In this document: positions 14,446 to 43,501 of the stretch, in pieces
How positions within the stretch are numbered: position 1 is the stretch's first letter
Layout of the letters: every line of letters starts with the position of its first letter
Source: Comamonas testosteroni
Lineage (GTDB): Bacteria; Pseudomonadota; Gammaproteobacteria; Burkholderiales; Burkholderiaceae_C
Direction: 5' to 3'
Length of the DNA stretch: 64,000 nt
Assembly (NCBI RefSeq): GCF_014076415.1
Contig: NZ_CP043568.1
Span: forward strand, 1,984,001 to 2,048,000
Translations under genes and position numbers: made by a program
The notes under the pieces: model-generated
The model's database searches: none
What the model was told of the DNA's origin: nothing
The model's input: only the letters and a program-made list of their open reading frames with translations

Positions 14446-14510
14446 CACAAGAGGCAACTCAAACAAGAGAAAACCCGACGTACTCGTCAATATCTAGCGT
14501 CTGCAATGGG

Positions 14511-15058: not shown

Positions 15059-15084
15059 CCCTCTATCCCCTCAAGGAGAACACC

Positions 15085-15564: not shown

Positions 15565-15680
15565 AGCACTTGGCGGGTGGGTGAATGGCGCACCTGTAGC
15601 ACACCCCACCGCTTGCAGCCCTCGAAATTCGAAGCCGCGATGCCAACTCCCGCAACCTAGGTCACGCATAGCCAAAAAGC

Positions 15681-17221: not shown

Positions 17222-17223
17222 GG

Positions 17224-23855: not shown

Positions 23856-23869
23856 CGCGGCGTCCTCCC

Positions 23870-26032: not shown

Positions 26033-28038
26033 AGCTCGATTCCGTCGTTGGGGTCGAGGGAAGCCAGCCGGGCCGTGCGCTGCATGGCCGGGTCAAGCTG
26101 GCGAGGAAGGGGAAGCGGCAGGTCGTCATCGTCATCGAGCAACCCGAGGTCGGCTGCGGACGCGGCCAGCTCGGGGTCGTAGGCGACGGCTTCGGAAAGT
26201 TCGGGCTGACGGCGCGGTCCGCCGTCGTCGGCCGAACCCAAGTGCTCCAGGCCATCAGTAGGTGCAGTGGCCGGTGCGGCAGGCACGGCGGGAATCGCCA
26301 GCCCGCTCCAGTCGTCGGCTCGCGAGGGCGGAACGTCGGCATAGCGTCCGGCCGCAAGCACGGGCGGCGGCAGCACGCGCCGCTTGAAATTGGTGTCCGC
26401 GTAATAGCGCAGCTTTTTGGCCTTGATCGGCGCCACGCTGGACACCATCACCACGGCTTCATCCGGCGGTAACTGCATCACTTCGCCCGGCGTCAGCAGT
26501 GGGCGCGCGGTCTCCTGGCGCGACACCATCAGGTGGCCCAGCCACGGCGCGAGCCGGTGGCCTGCGTAGTTGCGCTGTGCGCGCAGCTCGGTTGCAGTGC
26601 CCAGCGTTTCGGAGATCCGCTTGGCCGTGCGTTCGTCGTTGGTGGCGAACGTCACGCGGACATGGCAGTTGTCCAGAATCGAATGGTTCTGCCCATACGC
26701 CTTGTCGATCTGATTGAGCGACTGCGCGATGAGAAAGCTGCGAATGCCATAGCCCGCCATGAAGGCCAGTGCCGTCTCGAAGAAGTCGAGCCGCCCGAGC
26801 GCCGGGAACTCGTCAAGCATCAGCAGCAGCTTGTGGCGGCGCTCGATGCCGTCGGAGCCATCGAGCGATTCCGTCAGCCGTCGCCCGATCTGATTGAGGA
26901 TCAGGCGGATCAGCGGCTTCGTCCGCGAAATATCTGAAGGCGGCACCACAAGGTACAGCGATACCGGATGCTCGGCCGCGATCAGGTCGGCAATGCGCCA
27001 ATCGCAACGCGACGTGACTTCGGCCACCGTAGGGTCGCGGTACAGGCCGAGGAACGACATGGCCGTGCTCAACACGCCGGAACGCTCGTTGTCCGACTTG
27101 TTGAGCACTTCGCGCGCCGCCGATGCGACGACCGGATGCGGGCCATAGCCGAGATGCGGCGTGGTCATCATCCGGTGCAGCGTCAGCTCGAATGGGCAAG
27201 CCGGATCGGAGAGGAAGTTGGCGACGCCGCGCAGCGTCTTGTCCTCGCCCGCATAGAGCACGTGCAGGATGGCGCCGACCAGCAGAGCATGGCTGGTCTT
27301 CTCCCAATGGTTGCGCCGCTCCAGCGCGCCTTCGGGATCGACCAGGATGTCCGCGATGTTCTGCACGTCGCGCACCTCATGGGCGCCGCGACGCACCTCC
27401 AGCAGCGGGTTGTAGGCCGCTGACTTCGCATCGGTCGGGTTGAACAGCAGGCAATGCGAGAAGCGCGAGCGCCAGCCTGCGGTGATCTGCCAGTTCTCGC
27501 CTTTGATGTCATGGGTGACGGCGGACGCGGGCCAGCTCAACAAGGTGGGCACCACCAGGCCCACGCCTTTGCCCGAGCGGGTTGGTGCGAAGGTCAGGAC
27601 GTGTTCCGGACCTTCGTGGCGCAGGTACTGGCGTTCGTGCTGGCCGAGGAACACGCCGTCCGGCTGCGTGAGACCGGCCTCGCGAATGTCATCCGCGTTC
27701 GCCCAGCGCGCCGAGCCGTAGGTCGTGACCAGGCGCGATTGCCGCGAGCGCCAGATCGACATGCCGATGGCCACCAGCACGGCCACCAGGCCGCTGCCAC
27801 CCGCAATGGCGCCGCCGATGTCAAAGACGCTGGGCGCGTAGGCATCGAAGAAGAACCACCACTCGAACAGCCGCCACGGGTGATAGACCGGCGTACCGAA
27901 GAAGTCGAACCAGGGCGAGCCAAGGCGTAGCTGATAGCCCAGGGCGGCGGCTGTCCATTGTGTGGCTGCCCACACGCCGGCGATCACGATGCCGAATACC
28001 ACGGCGATCTGACCGAACAGCACGTTCGTCCCTTGCAT
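26029..28038 (-). CDS. traG: type IV coupling protein TraG (VirD4-like)
   Basis: A 669-residue VirD4/TraG coupling ATPase that brings the relaxase-DNA complex to the secretion channel. Two membrane helices at the N-terminus (residues 8-27 and about 80-105) precede Walker A FAPTRSGKGVGLVVPTLL and Walker B LLLMLDEFPALGRLD. The motif SLYLVVPPSDISRTKPLIRL is typical. The ATG at 28038 (MQGTNVLFG) has GGAGG seven bases upstream. It probably opens the conjugation operon that runs to DUF2274. Confidence 0.96.
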   Translation of the reverse strand: MQGTNVLFGQIAVVFGIVIAGVWAATQWTAAALGYQLRLGSPWFDFFGTPVYHPWRLFEWWFFFDAYAPSVFDIGGAIAGGSGLVAVLVAIGMSIWRSRQSRLVTTYGSARWANADDIREAGLTQPDGVFLGQHERQYLRHEGPEHVLTFAPTRSGKGVGLVVPTLLSWPASAVTHDIKGENWQITAGWRSRFSHCLLFNPTDAKSAAYNPLLEVRRGAHEVRDVQNIADILVDPEGALERRNHWEKTSHALLVGAILHVLYAGEDKTLRGVANFLSDPACPFELTLHRMMTTPHLGYGPHPVVASAAREVLNKSDNERSGVLSTAMSFLGLYRDPTVAEVTSRCDWRIADLIAAEHPVSLYLVVPPSDISRTKPLIRLILNQIGRRLTESLDGSDGIERRHKLLLMLDEFPALGRLDFFETALAFMAGYGIRSFLIAQSLNQIDKAYGQNHSILDNCHVRVTFATNDERTAKRISETLGTATELRAQRNYAGHRLAPWLGHLMVSRQETARPLLTPGEVMQLPPDEAVVMVSSVAPIKAKKLRYYADTNFKRRVLPPPVLAAGRYADVPPSRADDWSGLAIPAVPAAPATAPTDGLEHLGSADDGGPRRQPELSEAVAYDPELAASAADLGLLDDDDDLPLPLPRQLDPAMQRTARLASLDPNDGIEL

Positions 28039-28172
28039 GATCCCGCCTCCAATCACGGCACAACAACGTGCCGCGTGCATCAGGATCAAGGCGTGTGCAT
28101 AGGTCGGTCAAAGACCGTTATGGCGGGGATTTAGGCCGAAAAAGCCTGATTTCTTGCAGGAGCGAAGGCAAT

Positions 28173-28507: not shown

Positions 28508-29422
28508 TCAGGCATCGTCGGCAGCGTCGATACCGTCTGCCGAATCAATGAAGGCCACACGCTCGATGAACCGAGCCAGCATCTCGGACGGCTCCGCATC
28601 GCGGCGTAGCAGATAGGTCGTAAGCATGTATGGCTTGCCTGCCAAGCGGCGGGCCACGACACCCGGCTCGCGGCTGGAGGCGATATGCGCCTCGCCCGCT
28701 AGGCCCAAAGCCAGGCCAGCGGAAACCAGCGTCATCATCACGTCGAAGGTTGCCACGCGCTGCGCAATCAGCGGCTCCTGATCGAGCTTGCGCAGAAAAC
28801 GATCGATCTGCCGCGCGTGGCCTTCGCAGACCGCCGGGTCGCCCAGTGCCAACGGATAGCGCAGCACTTCTTTCAGCGGAACCTGTTTGAAGGCGAGCAC
28901 GGGATGGCGGGCTGGCACCGCTACCATCAGTTCATCTTCCCAAGCAGGTGTGACCAAGATACCATCGCCTCCATCCTCTGCCATCGAAAAACCTACGTCA
29001 TACAGATCTTCATGCAAACCCTTGATCTGCAGCCCGAGCGGCACCTCAAACAGACGCATCTCAACTTCAGGGTCCTCTTCACGGCATCGCGCCAGCAAAG
29101 TTGACAATCGTGTGGGTGTTACACCATCAGACAAGGCAATGCGTAACTGGCCTAAAAATCCGTTGGTGGCAGACTTGACGCCATCACGGGCCTGATCCAA
29201 TGCGGTAAAAATGCGCGGGACATGCTCCAAAAGCTGTCGCCCGGCACGGGTTAGTTGAGTGCTTCGGGTAGTACGAATGAATAAACGAGCACCAAGTTCC
29301 TCTTCTAATTCTTTGATAGTGCGTGAAAGTGGAGATTGGTCGATATGTAGTCGTTCAGCGGCGCGAGCGAAATGAAGTTCCTCCGCAACGATGAGAAAGC
29401 AGCGAAGATGTCGAAGCTCCAT
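28508..29422 (-). CDS. LysR-family transcriptional regulator
   Basis: A 304-residue LysR regulator. The winged HTH is at residues 15-45 (FARAAERLHIDQSPLSRTIK), followed by the linker helix and a type 2 periplasmic-binding-like effector domain. The ATG at 29422 has GGAG eight bases upstream; an in-frame GTG at 29431 is possible. It lies at the boundary between the conjugation genes and the cargo island. No divergent target gene is present. Its effector is unknown. Confidence 0.9.
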   Translation of the reverse strand: MELRHLRCFLIVAEELHFARAAERLHIDQSPLSRTIKELEEELGARLFIRTTRSTQLTRAGRQLLEHVPRIFTALDQARDGVKSATNGFLGQLRIALSDGVTPTRLSTLLARCREEDPEVEMRLFEVPLGLQIKGLHEDLYDVGFSMAEDGGDGILVTPAWEDELMVAVPARHPVLAFKQVPLKEVLRYPLALGDPAVCEGHARQIDRFLRKLDQEPLIAQRVATFDVMMTLVSAGLALGLAGEAHIASSREPGVVARRLAGKPYMLTTYLLRRDAEPSEMLARFIERVAFIDSADGIDAADDA

Positions 29423-29464
29423 TGTGCTCACTCCACTTTAATTCGTCTAATTTCATTTGCGCGG

Positions 29465-29887
29465 CTAATTAATCAGCCTTTGCCAGAGTGCTGACAGCCA
29501 AACCCCCCCGGTCAGCAAAGTGGCTAACAGCACGGCAGCGCTTCCCATGTCCTTTGCACGCTTTGATAGCTCATGCCATTGAGGGCCAATACGATCAATC
29601 GCCGATTCCACAGCAGTATTGAGTAGCTCCACAATCATCAAAATAAGGATACTTCCTGAGAGAAGAGCGACTTCGACCCATCCCTGCCCCAACCAGAAGG
29701 CCAATGGGACCAACACAAAGGAAAATACTGACTCAAGTCTAAAGGCCGGCTCATTCCATCCAGCGCGCAATCCCTGAATTGAGTAATGGGACGCATGCCA
29801 AATTCTCAATATTCCTCGGCGAGATTTTTGTTTATTTTCGAATGCGGACATGGAATCAGCTGCGATTGTGTGTTTTTTATCTTTCAT
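29465..29887 (-). CDS. dgkA: diacylglycerol kinase DgkA
   Basis: A 140-residue trimeric membrane kinase that rephosphorylates diacylglycerol, the by-product left when phosphoethanolamine is taken from phosphatidylethanolamine. Motifs GLRAGWNEPAFRLE and IVELLNTAVESAIDRIG contain the family's active-site Glu and Asn residues. There are three membrane helices. The N-terminus is about 20 residues longer than usual. It follows the phosphoethanolamine transferase gene by 11 bases, an association also known from mcr-3-type loci, and completes a lipid A modification cassette. Confidence 0.92.
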   Translation of the reverse strand: MKDKKHTIAADSMSAFENKQKSRRGILRIWHASHYSIQGLRAGWNEPAFRLESVFSFVLVPLAFWLGQGWVEVALLSGSILILMIVELLNTAVESAIDRIGPQWHELSKRAKDMGSAAVLLATLLTGGVWLSALWQRLIN

Positions 29888-29898
29888 GAGAACAACTC

Positions 29899-31572
29899 TT
29901 ATATATTCTTATCATCACAGCCAAAGAAAAAATCGAAATTCCTATCGTACTCACTTGTTTTAACCTGCATTAGCCCCAAGACAGACGAAAACAATGCGTC
30001 GTGATCCGCATAAGAGCGGGCTCGCTCACTCAAACAGCCAATATTCAGCCCGCGACTTTGCGTAAACGTTGAAGAGAACCACATAACCAAAGGAACACGA
30101 GTCTGCTCTTGTGGAGCAATCGCATAAGGCATGCCGTGCAGAAAAAGACCCTTCTCGCCCAGGGATTCGCCGTGATCCGAGACGAATATCATAGCTGTGT
30201 CGTAGTCGGAAAGCCCCTGCAATTGTTTGATGGCTCGGCTTAGGAAATGATCTGTGTAGAGAATAGCGTTGTCGTAGCTATTCACGATCTGTTCGCGGGT
30301 GCATTTCCCCATTTCCGGTGTGTCGCATGTTGGGATGAATTTGCGATACGCTGCTGGGTATCGTTGAAAGTAGCTGGGGCCATGATTTCCAATCTGGTGC
30401 AAAAAAATCACACGATCACCGGGAATTTTGCGAGCCTGAGCTGGTAAGTCTTCAAGCAAAATCTCATCGAAACACCGACCATCAACGCATAAAGAGGGAC
30501 TTTGTGCGTTCCCTAGACGTTGATTTTCGAGACCATCGCACACCCCTTTGCAACCTGACTGGTTATCCCTCCATAAGGTGGTAATACCAGCACGCTCCAG
30601 AACATGCAGTAAGGATTGGTGTGAACGAATCTTGTCCTCATCGTAGTTTCGGCGACCAAAGGACGAGAACATGCAAGGCACAGAAACCTCGGTGTTAGTT
30701 CCACAGGAGTGCATGTCGGAGAAATTGATCACACCTATCTGAGCCAATTGAGGCGTTGTTTCGCGTGCATAGCCGTTCAATCCCCAGTTTTGGGCGCGAG
30801 CCGTCTCGCCTACGACAAAGACTAATAAACGTGGCCGACTGCCTTCGGGCCTGACTGTTGCAACGGCATCAGCTCCAATGGTTTTCTTTTCGGCGGACTG
30901 CGTGATAGAGGAACCTTTTAGTGCCTTCGGTAAGCCCACCAGATAGTTTCCCGGTGTAATCAAGTATCGAACTTCGCGATGATTTCTCATCAGTGCGGAC
31001 ATGTCCTGAAATGACAGCATGACACCGACCGAAATCATCAGTGCCGAAAACAGCATTAATCCCATACGCCACACGGTTGCTTTCAGCCAAGTACGCCCGA
31101 CCAATCGGATTCGCCAAAGCAAAATAATCGGCACTACTGCCAGTTGGCTTAGTGGAGCAATCAATGCAGGCGTCAGTAGCTCGCGACTTTCCTTGAAGTC
31201 TGTGGCTAGAACATTGCGCAACATGCTCGAATCGAGGTAGATATGAAAGCTGCGCATGTAGTGTGTTGCGAGGGCAGAGGCAACAAACAGCACCGCAAGT
31301 AAAACCCTGGCATTCCAGCGCCATACAACCAAACTCAACAGCAGACTGTGAATTCCCACCAGAAACAGCAGTACGGATGTGCCCATGCGTAGACTGGACT
31401 GGACGCCTAAGGCGCTACTCCAAAATAGACCATTGCAGGCCAGTGCAAAGAAAATACTGGTCATCAAGATCAGCCACTCGACGCTGCATTGTGGTCGCCA
31501 ATGGCTTAGGTTCTTGAGGTTTGCAGTTCTGAATCGCGGCACCAGACCGAGAGCCTGTTTGAAAGTTCTCAT
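29899..31572 (-). CDS. eptA: lipid A phosphoethanolamine transferase (EptA/MCR superfamily)
   Basis: A 557-residue inner membrane enzyme that transfers phosphoethanolamine to lipid A, lowering surface charge and binding of cationic peptides such as polymyxins. Five membrane helices lie in residues 30-190. The periplasmic alkaline-phosphatase-like domain follows, with GETARAQNWGLNGY (zinc Glu256), CGTNTEVSVPCMFS (nucleophile probably Thr294), HQIGNHGPSYFQRYP and VSDHGESLGEKG (zinc Asp/His). Several Cys fit the usual disulfides. The ATG at 31572 overlaps the PAP2 stop. Whether it clusters with mobile MCRs or with chromosomal EptA cannot be told without a tree. Confidence 0.9.
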   Translation of the reverse strand: MRTFKQALGLVPRFRTANLKNLSHWRPQCSVEWLILMTSIFFALACNGLFWSSALGVQSSLRMGTSVLLFLVGIHSLLLSLVVWRWNARVLLAVLFVASALATHYMRSFHIYLDSSMLRNVLATDFKESRELLTPALIAPLSQLAVVPIILLWRIRLVGRTWLKATVWRMGLMLFSALMISVGVMLSFQDMSALMRNHREVRYLITPGNYLVGLPKALKGSSITQSAEKKTIGADAVATVRPEGSRPRLLVFVVGETARAQNWGLNGYARETTPQLAQIGVINFSDMHSCGTNTEVSVPCMFSSFGRRNYDEDKIRSHQSLLHVLERAGITTLWRDNQSGCKGVCDGLENQRLGNAQSPSLCVDGRCFDEILLEDLPAQARKIPGDRVIFLHQIGNHGPSYFQRYPAAYRKFIPTCDTPEMGKCTREQIVNSYDNAILYTDHFLSRAIKQLQGLSDYDTAMIFVSDHGESLGEKGLFLHGMPYAIAPQEQTRVPLVMWFSSTFTQSRGLNIGCLSERARSYADHDALFSSVLGLMQVKTSEYDRNFDFFFGCDDKNI

Positions 31573-32351
31573 GCTTGGAACCCCGATGAATGGACATCGC
31601 CTGAGCCACCAACAAACCAGCGTTGCCAGACCATGAAAAGACCCAAGGCAACGACCCAACAAATCAGGAGTGTCCACAAGTCATGAGAAAGGAAATGGGC
31701 TCCGCGCACCTGCTGGGTCCATCCAAAGATGGCACCTATCATCAAACCTGCGGCCAAGGCCATCCAACGCCAGGCAGGACGAACCATCAAGGTAAAGAAA
31801 TAGAGGCTGACCCATGCATATCCGGCACTTGCATGCCCTGCGGGAAAGCACACACCGCGGGGCATACCGAGCGGGCGTGTTTCAAACAGGCCCACAAACA
31901 CTCGCGCTCCGCCATAGCGCACCAAGTTCCAAGGGCAATCCATGTTAGTGAACGATTTCAGTGCCGAAACCGTCAGTGCCCCTATCAAGTACGCACAAAA
32001 AAGATACAGTAGCGGCCAGCGTAGGTATGCCGCGCATTTGTTGCTACGTTTTTTTCTCCAAGCCCAGATGCACGTTGCTGCAACCGCAATTGCCAGCAAG
32101 GTGGAAAGATTCTTTCCTCCCCGATGCAGCAGATTGTTGGTTAGCCAGGCATCTCGCAAAGCCCATCGGCTGCCCTGCAAGCGATAGAGATGATCGGCGA
32201 CCCAGAAGTCCCCACCGCCATCCATCAATAGACTGCTTATGATCAGCGCCGCACCCGCTGGTAGCGCTAGATGAGTGATTAAGAATCGAGGTGCGAATGG
32301 TGCGTTGGATGGTGGGGCGTTGCCCAGTAGTCGAAATTCATTGGGGGGCAT
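31569..32351 (-). CDS. PAP2-family membrane phosphatase
   Basis: A 260-residue PAP2 phosphatase with six membrane helices. The three active-site motifs are present: KSFTNMDCPWNL, FPAGHASAGYAW (a PSGH variant with His) and QQVRGAHFLSHDLWT with the catalytic His/Asp. Such enzymes accompany phosphoethanolamine transferases (also beside mcr-1) and may remove phosphate from lipid A or recycle undecaprenyl or diacylglycerol phosphates. The ATG at 32351 has GGAGG nine bases upstream. The gene starts inside the end of the czcC-like gene, tying it to the metal efflux operon. Confidence 0.85.
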   Translation of the reverse strand: MPPNEFRLLGNAPPSNAPFAPRFLITHLALPAGAALIISSLLMDGGGDFWVADHLYRLQGSRWALRDAWLTNNLLHRGGKNLSTLLAIAVAATCIWAWRKKRSNKCAAYLRWPLLYLFCAYLIGALTVSALKSFTNMDCPWNLVRYGGARVFVGLFETRPLGMPRGVCFPAGHASAGYAWVSLYFFTLMVRPAWRWMALAAGLMIGAIFGWTQQVRGAHFLSHDLWTLLICWVVALGLFMVWQRWFVGGSGDVHSSGFQA

Positions 32352-33636
32352 CGACATGTGCCTCCTTCGAATGCCACAGCGCATGCGCATCGATACGCAC
32401 CAGTGCTGACGCTTGCAGCGCATCGACGCGAGCCTGTGCCTCGGCGAGTCGTGTCTGGCGCAGGTTGCGCAACGTCAAGAGGTATTCGGCCAAGGCGGCC
32501 TCTCCCAGTTCCCAAGCCCGCCGCGTGTGGTTGCTGGCCGTGGTCTGCGCGGCCAGCGCCTGCGCGAATGACTGCCACTGCGTGCGCTTGCTGTCAACAG
32601 CCTGCGCGGCGACCCACGCACTTTGCTCCACCGCGCGCCGCACGCCGAGCGCCTCCGCCTCTGCGGCCGCCGCGTTGGCGCTTTCCGTGGCAGCCATTGC
32701 ACTGCGATAGTCTGTGCCAAATGGCACCGTCAGGACAACGCCAATGACACGTTCCGCCCCGCCGCGTTCAGACATCATGCGTACCCCGACTGTGGGGTCG
32801 GGCGTGCGGTTGGCGTGGGCGCGCTCAGCCACCTTGGCAAGACGGGCCGCCTCTCCATCTGCAATGCCGATTTCGACGCTCTGCCGCACGATACGCGCCA
32901 GCCAGTCCTGTGAGCCTCCTGGTAAGGGAGCGGGATCTGGCAGCGTGGATGGCCGGGCGGGAATCTCAATGCCGGGGAATTCGATCACCACCGTTTGACG
33001 CGCTGCCCGTTCTGCGTCGCGCGCAGCGCTGACCTGGGCTGCAAGCATTGCAAGCTCGGCTTGCAGAACGTCGCTGTCCCGCCGCGCGGCATCGCCCAGG
33101 GCCACGCGCCGGGCCATTGCTTCCTGCTCACGAATAAGCAACTTTTCCTGCGCTTGCATCTCGTCGGCTACGACGAAACTGCGCAGCCATCCGGCCCAGA
33201 CTTCCAACAGTCGCCTTGCCATTTGGTGCTCGGCATCTTCAAGGCGCATGTCGGCCACCCTGCGGGTGCTGCTGCCGATGTCCCGATCCAGACGCGCCTT
33301 GTTCGGCAGGCGAACAGCACGGCTGAGCTGGATTTCCCATTCGTTGTAGCGGCGCGCTTCGTTGGTCACGTTGCGGCGTTGTAGGCCGCTGCTGAGTTCA
33401 AATTCGTGACTACCGGCTTCAAGGGCGCTTTGCGTGGCAGCCGCCGCGTTCAAGCGAGCGGCTGCGGCATTCACGACCGGCTGGGTTTTCATCGCCGTTT
33501 CGACTTGCGCCTGCGCAGGCAGCCAGGAGAGATCATCGGCACGCGCTTGCGCGGGATGGAATGTCAAAGCCGCGATGGCCACCATGACGGCACCAGTCGG
33601 TAGTACCAGGCTGCATCCTTTGTTTTTATTCGTCAT
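32338..33636 (-). CDS. CzcC-like outer membrane efflux protein
   Basis: A 432-residue TolC-type outer membrane factor of metal RND systems. A signal peptide (about residues 1-33, ending AQARADD) is followed by two OEP repeats rich in coiled coil (LEAGSHEFELSSGLQRRNVT, MLAAQVSAARDAERAARQTV). It is the outer channel for the CzcA-like pump. The ATG at 33636 overlaps the DUF3240 stop. Its own end overlaps the PAP2 start by 14 bases. Confidence 0.88.
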   Translation of the reverse strand: MTNKNKGCSLVLPTGAVMVAIAALTFHPAQARADDLSWLPAQAQVETAMKTQPVVNAAAARLNAAAATQSALEAGSHEFELSSGLQRRNVTNEARRYNEWEIQLSRAVRLPNKARLDRDIGSSTRRVADMRLEDAEHQMARRLLEVWAGWLRSFVVADEMQAQEKLLIREQEAMARRVALGDAARRDSDVLQAELAMLAAQVSAARDAERAARQTVVIEFPGIEIPARPSTLPDPAPLPGGSQDWLARIVRQSVEIGIADGEAARLAKVAERAHANRTPDPTVGVRMMSERGGAERVIGVVLTVPFGTDYRSAMAATESANAAAAEAEALGVRRAVEQSAWVAAQAVDSKRTQWQSFAQALAAQTTASNHTRRAWELGEAALAEYLLTLRNLRQTRLAEAQARVDALQASALVRIDAHALWHSKEAHVDAPQ

Positions 33637-33953
33637 ACCAGTCTTCCACTTGCCAACACCGGCTCCACCCACCAGCGCACGTCGCTCGATGCGATGCGCT
33701 GGCGCAGATGCGCCAGAACCTGTTCCAGCCGTTCGGGTTCGATCAACACCCAGATGACACGCCGATCCACACGGCCGCGAACCTTCTCGCGAATGGACGC
33801 GCGCGCGAAGTCGCCGGTATGCCCTTCTGCGTGCAACAGGGTGAACCCTGGCAGCACCGGGTCGGCCATCAGGGCATCGGTGACGGCGTCTTCGAGCGTG
33901 GGTGGAAACACCAGATTCAGGCGCACCAGTTGCGCTTCTTTCAATCCGTTCAT
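33633..33953 (-). CDS. DUF3240 (PII-like) protein of metal efflux operon
   Basis: A 106-residue soluble protein of the DUF3240 family, small ferredoxin-like/PII-like proteins encoded inside CzcA-type operons. Visible motifs are LNLVFPPTLEDAVTDALMAD and GFTLLHAEGHTGDFARASIREKVRGR. It may act as a metal or nucleotide sensor for the pump; this is inference. It overlaps both neighbours by ATGA. Confidence 0.8.
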   Translation of the reverse strand: MNGLKEAQLVRLNLVFPPTLEDAVTDALMADPVLPGFTLLHAEGHTGDFARASIREKVRGRVDRRVIWVLIEPERLEQVLAHLRQRIASSDVRWWVEPVLASGRLV

Positions 33954-36900
33954 GCGCGGACTCCTTGTTGTGAGGAGATGGCCTGGCCGAATCGCCGGTA
34001 CAGCACCGGCAGCAGGACCAGGGTCAGCGCCGTGGAGCTGACCAGTCCGCCAATCACCACGATGGCGAGTGGGCGCTGGATCTCAGAGCCAGGGCCACTG
34101 GCCAGCAGCAGGGGCACCAGGCCAAAGGCGGTGATGGAAGCCGTCATCAGCACTGGGCGCAGCCGTCGCAACGAACCTTCGCGCACCACCTGTTCCATGG
34201 GCAGGCCTAGCGCGTGCAAGTGGTTGAAGTGCGTCACCAGCACCAATCCGTTGAGCACGGCGATGCCCAGCAGCGCGATGAAGCCGACCGAAGCAGGCAC
34301 CGACAGGTACTGCCCCGACAGCCACAGCGCCGCCACGCCGCCGACCATGGCAAACGGCACGTTGCCGAGGATGAGCGCGGCCTGCCGCACCGAGCCGAAG
34401 GTCATGAACAACACGAAGAAGATCAACGCTAGGGCCACCGGCACCACCATGCCAAGGCGGGCCGCCGCGCGCTGCTGGTTCTCGAACTGGCCGCCCCATT
34501 CGACGCGGTAGCCGGGCGGCAGCGGCACGTCGCGCGCCACGGCGGCACGCGCTTCATCCACGAAGCCGACCAGATCGCGCCCGCTCACGCTGGACTGGAT
34601 CAGCGCGAAGCGCGAGCCGTTCTCGCGCCGCACCAGCACGGGGCCATCGGTGGTGGCGATGCGCGCCAGCGAGGCCAGGGGGATTTCGCCCTGATCGCCA
34701 CGGGCGAGTTGCAAGTCCTTGAACCGCTCGGCCGATCCGCGCAGCCGGGCATCCCCGCGCACCACGATGGGCGTGCGCCTGTCCGGCTCGATCACCAGCC
34801 CGGCCGGCACGCCTTCGAGCTGCGCGCGCAACTCGTCCTGAACCTGTGTCACGGCCAGACCGGCGCGGCCTGCGGCCTGCGCATCCACCTTCACCTGCAG
34901 GTATTCCACGCTGTCGCTGGCCTGGGTGAGCACGTCGCGCGCACCGGGCACTTTCTCGATGCGAGCGGCCATGCGCTGCGCCAGATCGCCCAGTGTTTGC
35001 AGATCAGGGCCGAACAGCTTGACGGCCACGTCGCCCCGGCTGCCGGTGAGCATTTCCGAGATGCGCATCTCGATGGGCTGGGTAAAGCCGAATTCCAGGC
35101 CGGGGAAGGCATCCATCACCTTGCGTATCTCGGCACTCAACGCGTCCTTGTTAGCTGCATGCCAATCCTTGCGCGGTGCGAGCTGCATGAACAGGTCGGT
35201 TTCGTTCAGGCCCATCGGGTCGAGCCCCAGCTCGTCGGAGCCCACCCGCCCGATGCTGTGCCGCACCTCGGGCACCGCCGTACCGATGGCCTTCTGCACC
35301 GCCAGGTCAATCTCTAGCGAGCGCTGCAGCCCAATGGACGGCGGTTTTTGCAGTTGCAGCAGGATATCGCCCTCGTCCATCGTCGGCATGAACGCCTTGC
35401 CCGTGCCGAGGTAGGCCACCACACCCAATGCCAGGGCCGCGATGGCGACCGCCGATGCGCGTAGCGGGTGGTGAAGCGCAGCCTCCAGCAGCGGTTGGTA
35501 CAGGCGCGTGGCCCAGCGCATCACCCACGGCTCGGTGTGCGCGTGTTCCTTGAGCAGCAGGGAGGCAAGCACCGGCACCAACGTGAGCGACAGCAGCAGC
35601 GAGACGCCCAGGGCGAACACGATGGTCAGCGCCACCGGCACGAACAGTTTGCCTTCCAACCCTTGCAGCGTGAGCAGGGGCATGAAGGTCAGACAGATGA
35701 TGAGGATGCCGGAGGCCACGGGCACGGCGACCTCGCGCGCCGACGCGAATATGCGGTGCAGGCGCGGCTGGTGCGCACTGGGTGCGTGCGGGTCGAGCCG
35801 ACTGACGGCGTTTTCCACCACCACTACGGCAGCGTCCACCAGCATGCCGATGGCGATTGCGAGGCCCCCTAAGCTCATCAAGTTGGCGCTCATGCCGACA
35901 AGGCGCATCAGCAAGAAGGTACCCAGCGCCGCCAGCGGCAGCATCACCGCCACCACCAGCGCGGCGCGCAGCTCGCCGAGGAACAGAAGCAGCAGGATGA
36001 CAACCAGTACCGTCGCTTCCAGCAAGGCGCTTTCCACCGTGCCCACAGCGCGCTCGATCAACGTACTGCGGTCATAAAACGGCACCACCTTGACGCCGGG
36101 CGGCAAGCTGGGAGTCACCTCGTCCAGCCGCGCTCGAATAGCTTTGACCAGCGCCGAGGCATCGGCCCCGCGCAGCGCCACCACGATGCCTTCCACCGCT
36201 TCGCCCGCGCCGTCCCGGGTGACGGCGCCATAGCGCGTCACGCCTTCGATGCGCACCTGGGCCACGTCGCCCAGGCGAACTGGGGCCGTGCCATTGGCCC
36301 CCGCGCGCAGGATCAGACGGGACAAATCGTCCAAAGTGTGGATCGCGCCTTCAGCGCGCACGATCAGCGTGTCTTCGCCTGCATCCAGGCGGCCCGCACC
36401 GTCATTGCGGTTGTTGCGGCCGATCGCCGTGATGACATCAGAGAAGCTGAGGCCCGCAGCGGAAAGCCGTGCGCGATCCGGCACCACGGCAAAGCTCTTG
36501 GCTTCTCCACCCAGCACGTTGACATCAGCAACACCGGGCAGCGTGCGCAGGGCCGGGCGCAGCGTCCAGTCCAGCAGGGCGCGGCGCTCGCTCAACGTGA
36601 GGCCACCGCCTTCGATGGTGAACATGAACACGTCCGACAGCGGTGTCGAAATCGGCGCCAACCCGCCGCTGACGCCTTCGGGCAGGCTGCCCGAAACGCC
36701 GGCATAGCGTTCGGCCACTTGCTGACGCGCCCAGTAGATGTCGCTGCCTTCGGCGAAGTCCAGCGTGATGTCCGCGATGGCGTACTTGGCGGTGGAGCGC
36801 AGCATCACGCCTCGCGGCACGCCGAGCAACTCCATCTCCAGCGGCGTGATCACGCGTGACTCCACCTCCTCGGGCGTCATGCCAGGGGCCTTGATAATCA

Positions 36901-37045
36901 TCTTGACCTGCGTTGGAGAAATGTCCGGATAGGCGTCGATCGGCAATTGCAGGAAGGCCGCCAGGCCCGCGCCCGCCAAAGCCAGCACGCCGAGCAGCAC
37001 CAGCGCGCGTTGGCGCAGGGAAAACTCAATCAGACGGGACAACAT
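33950..37045 (-). CDS. CzcA-like heavy-metal RND pump
   Basis: A 1031-residue HME-family RND proton antiporter with 12 membrane helices and two large periplasmic loops. It uses proton flow to export divalent cations. The family start MLSRLIEFSLRQRALVLLG and the fourth-helix motif AIGMLVDAAVVVVEN are clear. The DFG part of the classical CzcA motif (DFGxxVDGAVVxVEN) is replaced by AIG, which fits another HME subgroup than the archetypal Co/Zn/Cd pump, so the metal is uncertain. The start lies 13 bases after the adaptor stop. Confidence 0.93.
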   Translation of the reverse strand: MLSRLIEFSLRQRALVLLGVLALAGAGLAAFLQLPIDAYPDISPTQVKMIIKAPGMTPEEVESRVITPLEMELLGVPRGVMLRSTAKYAIADITLDFAEGSDIYWARQQVAERYAGVSGSLPEGVSGGLAPISTPLSDVFMFTIEGGGLTLSERRALLDWTLRPALRTLPGVADVNVLGGEAKSFAVVPDRARLSAAGLSFSDVITAIGRNNRNDGAGRLDAGEDTLIVRAEGAIHTLDDLSRLILRAGANGTAPVRLGDVAQVRIEGVTRYGAVTRDGAGEAVEGIVVALRGADASALVKAIRARLDEVTPSLPPGVKVVPFYDRSTLIERAVGTVESALLEATVLVVILLLLFLGELRAALVVAVMLPLAALGTFLLMRLVGMSANLMSLGGLAIAIGMLVDAAVVVVENAVSRLDPHAPSAHQPRLHRIFASAREVAVPVASGILIICLTFMPLLTLQGLEGKLFVPVALTIVFALGVSLLLSLTLVPVLASLLLKEHAHTEPWVMRWATRLYQPLLEAALHHPLRASAVAIAALALGVVAYLGTGKAFMPTMDEGDILLQLQKPPSIGLQRSLEIDLAVQKAIGTAVPEVRHSIGRVGSDELGLDPMGLNETDLFMQLAPRKDWHAANKDALSAEIRKVMDAFPGLEFGFTQPIEMRISEMLTGSRGDVAVKLFGPDLQTLGDLAQRMAARIEKVPGARDVLTQASDSVEYLQVKVDAQAAGRAGLAVTQVQDELRAQLEGVPAGLVIEPDRRTPIVVRGDARLRGSAERFKDLQLARGDQGEIPLASLARIATTDGPVLVRRENGSRFALIQSSVSGRDLVGFVDEARAAVARDVPLPPGYRVEWGGQFENQQRAAARLGMVVPVALALIFFVLFMTFGSVRQAALILGNVPFAMVGGVAALWLSGQYLSVPASVGFIALLGIAVLNGLVLVTHFNHLHALGLPMEQVVREGSLRRLRPVLMTASITAFGLVPLLLASGPGSEIQRPLAIVVIGGLVSSTALTLVLLPVLYRRFGQAISSQQGVRA

Positions 37046-37058
37046 GCGTGGTCGCCCC

Positions 37059-38282
37059 TCATTGCAATGGAATCATGGATTTGAGCAGTGCCGTACCGCG
37101 CACGACGACCTGCATGCCTGCCGCAAGCGGCGCAGTGTCTGGCGAGACGGCACGCACGGCGCTTGACGCCTCTGATTCGTCTTGCCCCAGCAGTTGCACT
37201 GGAACGGCGCGGACGCGCAGGTCGCCTTGCTTGTCTTGCGATGTCGGTTCCGCAACGTAGAGCACGTGGCCGCTGCCCGCTGGCAGCAGTGCGGACGTTG
37301 GCACGCTCAAGGTGCCCTGCGATGCTGGCAGCAACAGCGCGACACTGATCTGCTGCCCGGCCGCATAGCGGTCTGCCCCTGCCTGATCGGCATCGACGCG
37401 GGCACGTACCCGCAGGCTCTGGCTACTGAGGTCAGTGTCGCCACCAACAGCCGTCACGCGAGCGGTCGTGCCATCGGGAAGACGTACTTCCAAGCCGGGG
37501 TGGAGATCCGAGCGCCAGCGCAGCGGAACCGCGACGCTGACATCCAGCGGGCCAGGCTGAGCCACTATGAAGGCGATGTCGAGCGGCGCGACCGCCTGCC
37601 CGAGGCTCAGGTGACGACGCATCACCCGCCCGGACAAAGGCGCCAGCAATTCATACTCGCCGGCCTGCCCGCCGCTAACGGGTCGAAGCCGCGCAAGAGC
37701 GCCATTGGCCTCTTGCAACGTACTTTGCGCAGCCGCCGCGCGCGCCTGGGTTTGCTCGTTGCGCGTGGCTGGGATGATGCCCTCGGCCAAGAGCGCGGCA
37801 TCGCGCCGGGCCTGCGCCGCGGCTACCGCCGCTTCGGTGCGAGCACGCGCCAGATCAGCCTGTAACGTCAGAACGTCCTTGCTCTGGATGCGCGCCAGCG
37901 CCTGTCCTTGGCGCACTGAGGCGCCTTCATCGACCAGAACGCGCGTCACCACACCGCCATAGGGCGCCACGACCTGCGCGCTGGCCGAGAGTGGTGCCAC
38001 CGTCTGCGCGGGTAAGCCATCCAGCGGTATCACTGCGGCATCCTTGACGAGTGCGGTTTCCACACCCTGCGCGCGAAGCTGAGCGGCGTTGAGGTGAACG
38101 CCGCCAGCGTTCGGTTGGGCGACAGCCTCGCTCGCGTCTCTATCGGCCACGGTTGTCTGCTGCGTTGTCCAAGCCCACCAGCCGTACCCTACGGCAGCCA
38201 GAACTGCCACACTGACGGCGGACAGGGCCAAGGTCTTGGTTCGGCTGGCGGTGCCCGCCGCTTTCAAGGTCGGGAAGCTCAT
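37059..38282 (-). CDS. CzcB-like periplasmic adaptor
   Basis: A 407-residue membrane fusion protein for the RND pump. An N-terminal anchor (about residues 16-36) is followed by the barrel-sandwich half-motif VVAPYGGVVTRVLVDEGASV, an Ala-rich coiled-coil hairpin (about 145-205), the return half YELLAPLSGRVMRRHLSLGQ and beta domains. It lacks the His-rich metal-binding start of archetypal CzcB. The ATG at 38282 (MSFPTLKAAG) gives the normal topology. It is the first gene of the operon that runs through pump, DUF3240, channel, PAP2, eptA and dgkA. Confidence 0.88.
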   Translation of the reverse strand: MSFPTLKAAGTASRTKTLALSAVSVAVLAAVGYGWWAWTTQQTTVADRDASEAVAQPNAGGVHLNAAQLRAQGVETALVKDAAVIPLDGLPAQTVAPLSASAQVVAPYGGVVTRVLVDEGASVRQGQALARIQSKDVLTLQADLARARTEAAVAAAQARRDAALLAEGIIPATRNEQTQARAAAAQSTLQEANGALARLRPVSGGQAGEYELLAPLSGRVMRRHLSLGQAVAPLDIAFIVAQPGPLDVSVAVPLRWRSDLHPGLEVRLPDGTTARVTAVGGDTDLSSQSLRVRARVDADQAGADRYAAGQQISVALLLPASQGTLSVPTSALLPAGSGHVLYVAEPTSQDKQGDLRVRAVPVQLLGQDESEASSAVRAVSPDTAPLAAGMQVVVRGTALLKSMIPLQ

Positions 38283-38593
38283 GCTTGTGCCGCCCCAAAC
38301 GACGTAGAGCAGAGTAGAAAGCACACAGCGCGGATTGAAAATCCGTCGCATATGAAGCGGTGCGCGAGGTTAATGAGGCGAAACATGCTGTCGATCTCTT
38401 ACTTAAAGATCGACTCATCTTCCTCGGTGAAGCTTTGAGAAAGCTTTGGAGAAAACGAAATTTGCTCAGTACGATGTATTTCGGCGAAACGCCTGCTTTG
38501 AGCAGCAAGCAATCGATAAACTGACTTTTCAGTAACTTGCTCTGATATGCCAGCGGTGCGCCTTTGCTACCTCAAACATCGGAGCTATACACC
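38283..38593. promoter_or_regulatory. divergent control region czc-like operon / cytochrome b561
   Basis: This 311-bp gap separates minus-strand czcB from plus-strand cytochrome b561. It contains a direct repeat AAGCTTTG/AAGCTTTG with 11-bp period (38430-38448), a perfect 8-bp-arm inverted repeat GTCGATCT/AGATCGAC (38390-38414) and a small hairpin CGGATT/AATCCG (38331-38345) in the czc leader. The order suggests activator site first, then leader structures. Confidence 0.6.
38430..38449 (-). promoter_or_regulatory. candidate OmpR-type regulator site upstream of czc-like operon
   Basis: Two copies of AAGCTTTG lie 11 bp apart, one helical turn, as expected for tandem binding of an OmpR-family response regulator. 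The same CTTTGGA-type repeat with the same spacing occurs at 43484-43501 before the regulator operon. Confidence 0.55.
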
Positions 38594-39145
38594 ATGAATG
38601 TCAGGAATTCCGAATACCGTTTCAGTCCTTTGGTCATAGGACTGCATTGGCTGACTGTGCTTCTCATCATCGCGGTCTATGCGAGCATGGAGCTGCGCGG
38701 ACTGGCACCCAAGGGCGCCTTGAGAGACGCCATGAAGTCCTTGCACTACCTGCTGGGCCTCAGCGTTCTGGTGATCGTCGTGATCCGTATCGGGGTGCGC
38801 ATCCAGGCGGGCGTGAAGCCCGCGATCCAACCACCCATGCCACGCTGGCAGGCCACGCTCGCCGATGTCATGCACTATGCGCTCTACAGCTTCATGCTCG
38901 CCATGCCGCTGCTCGGATGGCTCACCTTGAGTGCGGCGGGCAAGCCGATTGTTCTGTTTGGCTTGCCCATTCCCTCTCTGATCGGCACCGACGTTGCTTT
39001 GTCGCGCCAACTCAAGGATGTCCATGAGGCGCTGGCGACATTGGGCTATGTCTTGATCGGATTGCATGCGATGGCGGCGCTGTTGCACCACTACGTCATG
39101 CGTGACAACACACTGGTTCGCATGCTTCCCGGTCGACGCCCCTGA
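38594..39145 (+). CDS. cytochrome b561-family membrane protein
   Basis: A 183-residue bacterial cytochrome b561 with four membrane helices and heme-ligand His residues in IGLHWLTV, LHYLLGLS, VHEALATLG and LIGLHAMAALLHHYV. These proteins move electrons between the quinone pool and periplasmic acceptors such as superoxide. The ATG at 38594 has GGAG nine bases upstream. It is divergent from the metal efflux operon and followed by a VIT-family gene. Confidence 0.9.
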   Translation: MNVRNSEYRFSPLVIGLHWLTVLLIIAVYASMELRGLAPKGALRDAMKSLHYLLGLSVLVIVVIRIGVRIQAGVKPAIQPPMPRWQATLADVMHYALYSFMLAMPLLGWLTLSAAGKPIVLFGLPIPSLIGTDVALSRQLKDVHEALATLGYVLIGLHAMAALLHHYVMRDNTLVRMLPGRRP

Positions 39146-39186: not shown

Positions 39187-39894
39187 ATGACCAAATTTCA
39201 CCACCGCGCCCACCCTGAAAGTCACCGCACTGAACATATCGGATGGCTGCGCGCCGCTGTTCTGGGTGCCAATGACGGCATCATTTCCACGGCCAGCCTG
39301 GTTGCAGGCGTGGCTGCTGCCCATGCAAGCCATGCCAGCATCATGACCACGGCCATCGCGGGGTTGGTAGCCGGTGCCATGTCCATGGCTGCAGGCGAGT
39401 TCGTGTCGGTCTATTCACAAGCTGATACGGAGAAGGCGGATCTGGCGCGGGAACGTGATGAACTGAAGAACAGTCCGGAAGCCGAACATCGCGAACTCAC
39501 GGCCATCTATGTTCGGCGCGGCCTGGATCATCGACTCGCGGATCAGGTCGCCACGCAATTGATGGCGCATGATGCGTTGGGCGCGCACGCGCGCGATGAA
39601 TTGGGCATTTCTGAAACCTTGAGCGCTCGCCCGCTGCAAGCCGCTATGGCGTCCGCTGGAAGCTTCGCCGTGGGTGCGGCCATGCCGCTGGCCGTGGTTC
39701 TGTTGGCGCCGGAACAGAGCCTGCTCTATTGGATCGTCGCGACGGCGATTGTCTTCCTGGCCCTGCTCGGCGCTGCGGCTGCTGCCGTGGGTGGTACGCC
39801 GCTCTTCAAAAGTGCGCTGCGCGTCGCGTTCTGGGGCACATTTGCCATGGCGGTGACAGCGGGCGTGGGAGCCATGTTCGGCACTGCGGTGTAG
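39187..39894 (+). CDS. VIT1/CCC1-family iron/manganese transporter-like protein
   Basis: A 235-residue membrane protein of the VIT family, which moves Fe(II) or Mn(II). The first helix pair carries AAVLGANDGIISTASLVAGVAAA and AGLVAGAMSMAAGEFVSVYSQAD; a charged cytoplasmic metal-binding segment (residues 80-140) and three C-terminal helices follow. It lies 41 bases after cytochrome b561, and its end converges with the sensor kinase gene 13 bases away. A role in metal detoxification is inferred from context. Confidence 0.9.
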   Translation: MTKFHHRAHPESHRTEHIGWLRAAVLGANDGIISTASLVAGVAAAHASHASIMTTAIAGLVAGAMSMAAGEFVSVYSQADTEKADLARERDELKNSPEAEHRELTAIYVRRGLDHRLADQVATQLMAHDALGAHARDELGISETLSARPLQAAMASAGSFAVGAAMPLAVVLLAPEQSLLYWIVATAIVFLALLGAAAAAVGGTPLFKSALRVAFWGTFAMAVTAGVGAMFGTAV

Positions 39895-39907: not shown

Positions 39908-41320
39908 TCAGAGCAGCGGTGGCCAAGGGCCAAGCCGTGCGGACAGCCGACCGTTGTCCAGTGAGAACGCCAGCGGCAGGTCTATGGCATGCGCGAGCGC
40001 CAGAGCCAGTGCAAGTCCCAGCCCGGCGTGGTGCGCCGTGCCACCTTCGGAATCCTTGCGCCAGAAGCGAAGTCCGAATTGATCCAGATCGGATGCCTGC
40101 AAATTGGGAGCTGTGTTGACGATGGTCAACATCCAGCCGGAAGCCGCGCGCTCCAGCCTACATTGAATGTCGTCGCCTTCGGGCGCGTATTCAATGGCAT
40201 TGCGCAAGAGGTTGGAGACGATGCGTTCGATCACGCCCTGATCGCTTTGCACCCATGCCGATTCAGGCAAAGTCACACGGATAGGTGACTTGGGTGCCAT
40301 TTGCTGGACGTTGAATCCCGCCAGCAACTCTTGCAGCAAAGCTGTTAGATCCAGAGGATCAAGCGCAAGTGTGTGTTGGCCGGATTCAAGCCGCGCCAAC
40401 AACAGCAGAGTGTCCACACTGCGCTGCATGCGTGAACTGGCCTGGATCGTTGCATTCAGGGCGCGCTGGATTCGGGTCGGGTCGGCATCGATCAAAGCGC
40501 TTTCTGCGCTGATGCGGATTTCTGCCAAGGGCGTGCGCAACTCGTGGGCCACGTCGCGGGAGAAGCGGCGCTCGCGGGCAATGGCCGCATACAGGTGATG
40601 CAAGCCCTGATTGAAGGCTTCGGCAAACGGCCGCAGTTCGCGTGGAAAGTCCGCTCCGATCCGCGCAATCGGCCGATCCGAACGCAGGTCGGCCAGTTGC
40701 ACGCCGACGCGCTCCAGCATGACCACGATGCGCCGAACCATGAGCAGCGCCAGGCCTGTGGCCAGGAGCGTCGCCAGTGCGATACCGCCCAGGAGCGTGA
40801 AGTGGATGCGCCGCTCGGTTTGATCCCAATCCCGACGTTCTGTTGCCACAACCAGCAATCGAGATTCCTCACCTCTTACCGGCACGCGCGTCGCCAGCGC
40901 GCGGCCCGCGTGGCCGTCCGGGAGTATCACGTCGTAGTAGCGTGGGGTGCCTTGCTCCACCGGTCCAAGCGCCAGCTCGGCCCCAGCACTGCTGGGCGAA
41001 CGCAGCAAGGCCCGGTGGGTCTGCGGATCGAAGATCGTGAAGAACTCGGTATGCCCGCCAGGCTCGTATTCCGGCATGAGGCTTTCGAGCTTTCTCGCAT
41101 CCAACTCCTGCAGCACGCGCCCCACCGCCGCTGATCGTTGCATCAGGGTGGTATCCATCCGTCGGTAGATTTCGTGGTCGATCCAGTGGTCGAGGACGGG
41201 AAACAGGATCGCGAAGGTTCCTCCAATGCAGATCACGAGGCTGGCAGCCAGCCGCCGCTGCAAGGACCAGGATCTGCCTTGACTCGTATCAGAGAGGGCT
41301 TCGGAATCGGGACGTACCAT
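39908..41320 (-). CDS. sensor histidine kinase
   Basis: A 470-residue two-component kinase. Two membrane helices (about residues 24-45 and 172-195) flank a periplasmic sensor domain of about 125 residues. A HAMP region precedes the phospho-acceptor FSRDVAHELRTPLAEIRIS, the N box NLLRNAIEYAPEGD and a G box HHAGLGLALALA. It follows the response regulator after 3 bases. The signal could be a metal or cationic peptide given the targets around it; the sensor domain gives no clear hint. Confidence 0.93.
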   Translation of the reverse strand: MVRPDSEALSDTSQGRSWSLQRRLAASLVICIGGTFAILFPVLDHWIDHEIYRRMDTTLMQRSAAVGRVLQELDARKLESLMPEYEPGGHTEFFTIFDPQTHRALLRSPSSAGAELALGPVEQGTPRYYDVILPDGHAGRALATRVPVRGEESRLLVVATERRDWDQTERRIHFTLLGGIALATLLATGLALLMVRRIVVMLERVGVQLADLRSDRPIARIGADFPRELRPFAEAFNQGLHHLYAAIARERRFSRDVAHELRTPLAEIRISAESALIDADPTRIQRALNATIQASSRMQRSVDTLLLLARLESGQHTLALDPLDLTALLQELLAGFNVQQMAPKSPIRVTLPESAWVQSDQGVIERIVSNLLRNAIEYAPEGDDIQCRLERAASGWMLTIVNTAPNLQASDLDQFGLRFWRKDSEGGTAHHAGLGLALALALAHAIDLPLAFSLDNGRLSARLGPWPPLL

Positions 41321-41323
41321 CGT

Positions 41324-41989
41324 TCAGGGCAGTATGTAGCCGAAGCCACGTCGTGTCACGATCAGTTCATCCAGGCCGCACTGGGCGAGCTTGGTTCGCA
41401 AGGTGCTGACAATCACCTCCACCACCTTGTCCGATGCATCGCTGCGGCTGTCGTACAAATGTTCAAAAATCTGCGGGCGCGACAGCGTGGCGCCGCGCCG
41501 ACGCAGCAGCAAGTCGAGTAGTCCATATTCCTTCGGCGTGAGCCCAAGATCAATGCCCTTGAACCTCGCGGTGCGCGAGCGCGGATCGACTTCCAGATCG
41601 CCGTGGCGCAGAACTGGAACGTCCCGTTGCGGCGGACGCCGCACCAGCGCCCGCAGGCGAGCCAGCAGTTCGGCCAGCTCGAAGGGTTTTGTCAGGTAGT
41701 CATCGGCACCCGCATCCAAGGCCCGCACCCGGTCGTCGAGCAACTCGCGCGCGGAGAGCACCAACACCGGTGCGGCATGGGCCTCCCGGCTCAATGCGCG
41801 CAACACGCCAAAGCCGTCCAGCCGGGGCAGCATCAAGTCCAGAATAATGGCGTCGTACCGGTAGCTGGCAAGAAACTTCAGCGCGGACACGCCATCGGCT
41901 GCTGTATCGCAGGCATAGCCTTCCGACTGAAGGCTCTGGCTCAGGGCTTCGGCCAGCGTTTGCGAGTCTTCCACGATCAATACGCGCAT
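41324..41989 (-). CDS. OmpR/PmrA-type response regulator
   Basis: A 221-residue regulator with an N-terminal receiver domain (phospho-Asp in IILDLMLPRLDG, conserved Lys in YLTKPFEL) and a C-terminal winged helix (LTPKEYGLLDLLLRRRGATL, VVEVIVSTLRTKLAQ). The ATG at 41989 lies 14 bases after the oxidoreductase stop, so the three genes form one operon. It is the likely binder of the 11-bp-period repeats at 43484-43501 and 38430-38449. Confidence 0.94.
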   Translation of the reverse strand: MRVLIVEDSQTLAEALSQSLQSEGYACDTAADGVSALKFLASYRYDAIILDLMLPRLDGFGVLRALSREAHAAPVLVLSARELLDDRVRALDAGADDYLTKPFELAELLARLRALVRRPPQRDVPVLRHGDLEVDPRSRTARFKGIDLGLTPKEYGLLDLLLRRRGATLSRPQIFEHLYDSRSDASDKVVEVIVSTLRTKLAQCGLDELIVTRRGFGYILP

Positions 41990-42003
41990 ATGCTTTCTTC
42001 CAT

Positions 42004-43347: not shown

Positions 43348-43483
43348 CGTGGATTTGCCCCAAATTCTGCGGAAGGCGCATGCGGTACTGGTCGGAAACC
43401 ATCAATCCAGATAAGCGATAGCGTGCCTTTGAATGTGACCATGTATCCGCAATTACAGAAAATTTTAATTCTGACATCCCAAC

Positions 43484-43501
43484 CTTTGGAAACGCTTTGG
43501 A
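43484..43501 (-). promoter_or_regulatory. candidate autoregulatory site upstream of reductase/two-component operon
   Basis: CTTTGGA occurs at 43484-43490 and again at 43495-43501, an 11-bp period. The site is about 137 bases before the oxidoreductase start, like the related repeat about 150 bases before czcB. The rest of 43348-43562 is AT-rich and holds no gene. Confidence 0.55.

Follow-up and report, generated by a model that had tools for sequence, protein, structure and literature searches.

Gene content and layout of the block

The stretch of Comamonas testosteroni DNA analysed here (RefSeq assembly GCF_014076415.1, contig NZ_CP043568.1, positions 1,984,001 to 2,048,000) is 64,000 nucleotides long and is called the window below, with positions counted from its first letter. 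It carries a block of seven genes, in which a heavy-metal efflux operon of the resistance-nodulation-division (RND) type is joined to three genes for lipid-modifying enzymes, within an integrative and conjugative element (ICE) of the Tn4371 type. Gene content was assessed from open reading frame coordinates and from Pfam matches, which were accepted only above the family cut-offs (HlyD_3, HlyD_D23, ACR_tran, DUF3240, OEP, PAP2, EptA_B_N + Sulfatase and DAGK_prokar). The order is czcB-czcA-DUF3240-czcC-PAP2-eptA-dgkA, all on the minus strand, running from 38282 to 29465.

37059..38282, minus strand: czcB, membrane-fusion protein (RND_mfp 108.1 bits, cut-off 94.9; Pfam HlyD_3 and HlyD_D23)
33950..37045, minus strand: czcA, heavy-metal RND pump (TIGR00914 987.9 bits, cut-off 701.45; Pfam ACR_tran)
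33633..33953, minus strand: DUF3240 protein (PF11582 131.5 bits)
32338..33636, minus strand: czcC, outer-membrane factor (PF02321, OEP, 30.4 bits, cut-off 22)
31569..32357, minus strand: PAP2 phosphatase, LpxE-like by kinship with the Lysobacterales lpxE-eptA pair (PF01569 45 bits, cut-off 27.2)
29899..31572, minus strand: EptA/MCR-type phosphoethanolamine-lipid A transferase (NF028537 562.9 bits, cut-off 500; Pfam EptA_B_N + Sulfatase)
29465..29887, minus strand: dgkA, diacylglycerol kinase (PF01219, DAGK_prokar; resembles solved DgkA)

czcA and the DUF3240 gene overlap by 4 bases, as do the DUF3240 gene and czcC. The overlap of czcC with PAP2 is 20 bases, the PAP2 start codon lying within the czcC frame and its GGAGG ribosome site also inside czcC, and PAP2 and eptA overlap by ATGA. 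Only czcB-czcA (13 bp) and eptA-dgkA (11 bp) are separated by gaps, none larger than 13 bp. A first-pass annotation of this DNA had listed the same seven genes, with the czcC stop inside the PAP2 coding start and an ATGA shared by PAP2 and eptA, and the coordinates and Pfam matches agree with it on each of these points. It had further proposed a single transcriptional unit; the one-operon architecture holds by gene order and overlaps, while metal induction of the lipid genes goes beyond what this layout can show. These features make joint transcription likely.

Distribution and conservation

A scan of genome contigs for EptA returned nine loci, with the complete block in seven (Pigmentiphaga, a Burkholderiaceae metagenome-assembled genome (MAG), two Delftia, Xenophilus, Variovorax and Stenotrophomonas) and PAP2-eptA alone in two. 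Together with three further loci (L050, L106 and L107) and the window, this gives 11 distinct complete records; L012 and L068 are one genome and were counted once, and the L049 copy, which ends in PAP2 at a contig edge, is a twelfth copy left out of the 11. The first-pass annotation had suggested looking for the same seven-gene order in other genomes, and that order was met in all 11 records, window included, across several genera. Across the seven genes the proteins are 92-100% identical to those of the window, and traR/traG adjoin the block in 11 of 11 records, with traR in the same place. All 10 of the other copies checked likewise begin PAP2 within czcC, eight with GGAGG and two with GGGGG ahead of the start. 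Identity along the block is mosaic (the window's czcC is 100% identical to that of L010 and L050, its eptA to that of L009), suggesting that copies recombine inside the block yet keep the gene order.

Outside these records the arrangement is rare. A 501-bp query spanning the czcC-PAP2 joint was recovered whole, at 96% identity or more, from 6 of 399 same-family genomes and from 2 of 398 same-phylum genomes, the latter two of one genus; the window's own genome is included in each count. Nineteen places were fetched of 41 DUF3240 matches, own included, and none of the 17 other czc-DUF3240 loci (L051-L067) holds lipid genes, L060 ending at czcC and L055 about 1.5 kb beyond it. For eptA, the best 30 loci of 91 genomes with an EptA-like match were surveyed, two of them being this block; among the 28 others (L021-L048, with flanks of about 1.5 kb) pump genes occur in none, a PAP2-like match lies nearby in 17 and a dgkA-like match in three. 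As none of these 17 and 28 loci combines both parts, the block was rejected as a general arrangement of czc-DUF3240 operons or eptA loci, and the earlier description of the operon as unusual is borne out. In one of the surveyed eptA loci (L036, 3143-4210), relatives of eptA, dgkA and PAP2 are found together without pump genes.

Sequenced plasmids were also considered as carriers and rejected, since megablast covers at most 7% of the block in 11 records. The best plasmid-borne transferase among those listed is 49.1% identical, and plasmid DUF3240 relatives stay below 60% in 9 records. In the protein searches up to 8000 candidates were scored, and homologue figures here and below hold among the 120 matches listed.

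Chimeric origin

Relatives of the pump operon were compared at two loci. In L103, from the same family, the sensor, VIT, cytochrome b561, czcB, czcA (interrupted), DUF3240 and czcC genes are present at 60-86% identity; in L104, from another order of the same class, the regulator, sensor and four pump genes are present at 59-85%. Both pump operons stop at czcC, beyond which come an IS3-like element and a thioesterase gene. The interruption of czcA in L103 (11459-16008) is about 1.4 kb long.

The kin of the lipid genes lie elsewhere. After clusters at 97% and 79%, the nearest named relatives of eptA among the matches listed are from Stenotrophomonas and Xanthomonas (59-69%), and named PAP2 homologues among those listed are mostly from the same two genera (about 46-64%), with one from Paracidovorax at 61%. 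For dgkA the nearest named relatives listed are from Comamonas testosteroni (93%, perhaps on the same ICE) and next from other Burkholderiales (about 70-75%). At a PAP2-eptA locus of the presumed donor type (L105), an ArnT-like PMT_2 gene precedes PAP2. Base composition differs as well, with a GC content of 62-67% in the pump genes and 48-55% in the lipid genes, and a GC content at third codon positions of 0.69-0.84 and, for PAP2-eptA-dgkA, 0.49-0.56. Because pump relatives end at czcC, lipid-gene kin lie elsewhere and GC differs, the block is a chimera, in which at least two and probably three sources were joined. PAP2-eptA looks to be of the Lysobacterales lpxE-eptA kind, and dgkA looks Burkholderiales-derived. 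A diverged eptA-dgkA pair is perhaps present on one metagenomic contig, carrying a transferase (P0002) at 79% and a dgkA (P0247) at 77% identity, since the longest contig measures 3859 for each.

A candidate operator upstream of czcB

Two repeats resembling regulator sites were located in the window.

38430..38448, minus strand: putative tandem operator CAAAGCTT-TCT-CAAAGCTT, 147 bp before the czcB start, exact in the window
43481..43499, minus strand: weaker operator-like repeat with 3 mismatches, upstream of the ferric-reductase-like gene, regulator and sensor

In an alignment of czcB upstream regions the tandem repeat is conserved beyond its surroundings. The window has it without mismatch (chance alone would give 0.02 matches at up to 3 mismatches), and so do all 11 of the other block copies scanned; pump operons without lipid genes also have it before czcB, with one mismatch each in L103 and L104 and three in L053. 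In the whole genome the sole other match within 3 mismatches lies about 1.1 Mb away. No match within 4 mismatches was found in the donor-type PAP2-eptA loci L105, L016 and L017 or in the related pump locus L055, and nothing comparable was found near or before PAP2-eptA in the window. An OmpR-type regulator would suit such a pair of half-sites, spaced by one helical turn. The tandem repeat is probably a response-regulator site. Since it stands before czcB and none stands before PAP2, expression of the lipid genes seems to rely on the czcB promoter, and this placement supports co-induction of pump and lipid genes.

The weaker repeat before the ferric-reductase-like gene may reflect autoregulation of the two-component genes, which we regard as possible; it was not found in L049, the sole other copy holding that stretch. 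In L049 (5093-5527) the VIT match is shortened, no cytochrome b561 match was found before czcB, and the upstream sequence diverges just before the retained operator.

Lipid-modifying enzymes and pump

The transferase appears intact by sequence, its zinc and nucleophile residues being retained. E256, T294, D466 and H467 align with active-site residues of Neisseria meningitidis EptA, with H397 and H479 common to both proteins as well; the roles of the active-site residues are described in PMC8306577. The inactive catalytic residues that the first-pass annotation had raised as grounds for doubting its proposal were not found. Assignment to a numbered MCR family, mcr-12 included, was rejected, as the best NCBIfam score is 534.5 for MCR-5, against a cut-off of 1250, and MCR-12 scores 352.6 against a cut-off of 1200.

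PAP2 falls below the curated lipid-A phosphatase model NF028538 (75.7, cut-off 275). It is 47-79% identical to 33 selected homologues, and the PxGH and RGAHFxSHD columns are invariant in the 34 sequences; the spacing of its third motif departs from what we take to be the textbook PAP2 motif. A sequence search for PDB relatives gave none up to E = 1. A structure model shows eight helices with a predicted local distance difference test score (pLDDT) of 82.4, and no conclusion is based on it.

By its family match (TIGR00914) the pump is a member of the CusA/CzcA heavy-metal RND family. Its motif in transmembrane helix 4 (TM4), AIAIGMLVDAAVVVVEN, from residue 396, aligns with that of CusA and not with that of ZneA: the pump reads AIAIG...VDAA, as does CusA, whereas ZneA has AIDFG...VDGA. 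An acidic DFG...DGA-type TM4 motif marks a strict CzcA-type Zn/Co/Cd pump, and this motif is absent here. By score, the pump is closer to ZneA than to CusA (637 versus 579 bits). The positions that we take to be the CusA methionine triad read I/E/E by eye, which argues against a Cu/Ag pump. The earlier description of a CzcCBA-like set with DUF3240 therefore fits as to operon and family, but it overreaches as to order, which is B-A-DUF3240-C, and as to substrate, since TM4 is CusA-like and the Czc label is by operon and family only.

ICE context and neighbouring genes

The genes surrounding the block, and further features of the window, are as follows.

62429-63628: integrase (Phage_integrase domain)
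45996-46847: TraF-type peptidase (domain match)
43563..45974, minus strand: relaxase-type protein (DUF3363), ICE backbone flanking the cargo slot (PF11843 495.5 bits; Relaxase domain 20.7, below the cut-off of 24.6)
42004..43347, minus strand: ferric-reductase-like membrane protein, before the two-component genes (Pfam Ferric_reduct)
41324..42001, minus strand: OmpR-type response regulator, start codon not fixed (Response_reg + Trans_reg_C)
39908..41320, minus strand: sensor histidine kinase, heavy-metal-sensor-like, below the family cut-off (TIGR01386 160.6 bits, cut-off 292.55)
39187..39894, plus strand: VIT-family transporter (PF01988)
38594..39145, plus strand: cytochrome b561-like protein (PF01292)
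28508..29431, minus strand: traR (LysR-type), backbone gene right after the cargo (LysR_substrate + HTH_1)
26029..28089, minus strand: traG coupling protein, ICE backbone (PF02534)
21384-23996: TrbE-type ATPase (domain match)

The ferric-reductase-like, regulator and sensor genes are codirectional with czcB, and the VIT and cytochrome b561 genes lie between them on the opposite strand. In L050 the VIT gene (14504-17688) is interrupted by about 2.5 kb.

Tn4371-type ICEs have a variable region between relaxase and traR (PMC2789088). The order relaxase-type DUF3363 gene, cargo, LysR-type traR, traG and TrbE-type ATPase matches that described in the same paper, and a tyrosine integrase is present at one end, as expected for such an ICE. 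By this gene order the block occupies the cargo slot of a Tn4371-type ICE, with the relaxase on one side and traR/traG on the other. The location on an ICE, asserted in the first pass, is confirmed by the relaxase-type DUF3363 protein, TraF-type peptidase, traR, traG and integrase. The ends of the element were searched by a flanking 8-bp direct repeat, and one end was not located; the 8-mer has two copies, at 13794 and 63804, in opposite orientation, with 0.58 expected by chance. A DUF1016/YhcG-type nuclease gene (61263-62432) adjoins the integrase, and a Tn3-family transposase gene is present at 5097-8069.

Between the end of dgkA and the start of traR lie 33 bp (29432-29464), with no terminator-like site in a scan at chance level. 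Because of this short distance and the lack of a terminator match, the transcript may run on, and transcription from the cargo into the transfer regulator traR is possible. In other Tn4371-type loci, similarity starts about at the traR start, and the sequence before traR diverges. A near-perfect 16-bp palindrome (29463-29478, by eye, without a T-run) spans the dgkA stop just before traR and could be a LysR-type site.

Proposed mechanism and alternatives

These observations are best explained, in our view with fair probability, by one chimeric operon on a Tn4371-type ICE, from which a metal-induced transcript would make both efflux and lipid-A modification enzymes. An older efflux operon, czcB-czcA-DUF3240-czcC, with an adjacent sensor/regulator pair, would have gained PAP2-eptA and dgkA at its 3' end; joining at that end would leave the lipid genes without a visible regulator site of their own. 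The sensor kinase would detect divalent-metal excess, the regulator would bind the tandem repeat that precedes czcB, and a single transcript would yield the pump and the lipid enzymes. PAP2 would strip a lipid phosphate, and EptA would decorate lipid A with phosphoethanolamine taken from phosphatidylethanolamine, leaving diacylglycerol as a by-product for DgkA to recycle. Efflux and a less negative, less metal-binding surface would then act jointly, with polymyxin tolerance as a by-product. Within this scheme, whose basis is sequence, metal-induced lipid-A modification is plausible.

Several points weigh against it. Transcription as one operon is argued from gene layout. Of 23 other loci scanned for the tandem repeat, 20 gave no match within 4 mismatches. 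Protein identity among the copies never falls below 92%, and hence only one fusion event is seen. Consensus promoter and terminator scans were at chance level, with no promoter recovered even before czcB; an internal promoter is compatible with the promoter scan, which has no power here. By analogy, mcr-12, likewise beside czcCBA, is reported as constitutive (PMC13373230).

The last two points, together with the sharp composition change at the czcC/PAP2 joint, would also suit two adjoining units, in which the pump operon functionally ends at czcC and PAP2-eptA-dgkA are expressed from a weak constitutive promoter of their own in the czcC end, so that the link is physical co-selection only. However, no gap separates czcC from PAP2, whose start codon falls within czcC behind a strong ribosome site; this joint recurs in all the other copies checked, and no terminator-like site was found there on the minus strand in the scan at chance level. 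Two units are, on this evidence, unlikely.

Selection was assessed by pairwise codon comparison. The ratio of nonsynonymous to synonymous changes (dN/dS) is 0.21 for eptA, 0.24 for PAP2 and 0.05-0.23 for the pump genes; the value for dgkA was discarded, as frameshifted copies had been compared codon by codon. A further point against the single operon is that in 4 of the 11 distinct copies a lipid gene is disrupted by a stop codon or frameshift; several copies are draft assemblies or MAGs. Coupling of pump and lipid genes is therefore not strictly maintained. The damaged copies are as follows.

L011: PAP2, codon 8
L012: dgkA, codon 105
L015: eptA, codon 199, and dgkA
L106: dgkA

The pump genes are unbroken in all 12 distinct copies, and each gene of the block has intact copies. 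This imbalance, and two further EptA-like genes in the same genome (38% identity), could mean that the lipid genes are passengers, expressed with the pump but contributing nothing, as decaying cargo. Nevertheless, the dN/dS of eptA and PAP2 and the constant gene order in 11 records of several genera speak against decay, and we consider a passenger role improbable, more so than two separate units.

A broader reading can be offered tentatively, at just short of an even chance: the block would be a mobile metal-inducible lipid-A remodelling operon, in which MCR/EptA-kind genes from a ColRS/RaxRH-type setting were rewired to an efflux promoter on a multi-genus ICE. Metal alone would then elicit efflux together with polymyxin-tolerance chemistry, and the transcript may reach traR. 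Co-selection, as the first-pass annotation proposed it, follows in its physical form from gene linkage; its remaining parts, namely metal induction of the lipid genes, lipid A modification in the host and polymyxin tolerance, reach further than linkage does. Metal/polymyxin co-selection is usually treated as physical linkage of separate units, whereas here the linkage looks transcriptional and mobile. If so, a metal signal would induce a surface change without antibiotic, from an element already in several beta- and gammaproteobacterial genera, and ICE cargo labelled merely as metal resistance is worth including in surveys of mcr-like genes. A direct test becomes possible, in which metal should raise phosphoethanolamine on lipid A only with the element present.

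Comparison with known systems

Tn4371-type ICEs described in 2009 share the cargo slot between relaxase and traR/traG, and czc pumps were noted there as cargo of Delftia, Comamonas, Diaphorobacter and Pseudomonas elements (PMC2789088). Six lipid-gene terms are absent from the main text of that paper; its ICEs may carry the same block.

That metals can govern lipid-A modification is itself already known, from PmrAB and ColRS (PMC4074579, PMC8306577). Zn-responsive ColRS is reported to control eptA and a predicted lpxE in Pseudomonas, and similar control is predicted for RaxRH of Xanthomonas (PMC8306577, PMC4074579). In Xanthomonas, PAP2 (called lpxE) and eptA share ATGA, beside raxRH and arnT (PMC8306577). 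The Lysobacterales raxRH-arnT-lpxE-eptA cluster, orthologous to Zn-responsive ColRS, resembles the present block in its PAP2-eptA pair with ATGA beside a metal-type two-component system (PMC8306577), as does the Stenotrophomonas order arnT-pap2-mcr-5-like (PMC13402532). The cluster differs in being chromosomal and in having arnT; neither a metal pump nor dgkA belongs to its described order, and the eptA genes are 59-69% identical.

Transferases adjoining pap2 and/or dgkA are known for mcr-1, -2, -3, -7.1 and -8 (PMC10285318). In the parts of that paper drawn on, most have one accessory gene, with both near mcr-7.1, and unlike here no metal-efflux operon is mentioned. A close system on the pump side is the mcr-12 region of plasmid pPLE30.2 (Pigmentiphaga litoralis), described in 2026, in which an EptA/MCR-type gene lies beside czcCBA (PMC13373230). 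However, its transferase is a different one and is reported to stand outside shared regulation; the words PAP2 and dgkA are absent from the main text of that paper. A transferase appended to a pump operon was not found in our searches of an open-access library. The individual parts of the Comamonas block are known, and it is their union in one hybrid unit that is unusual.

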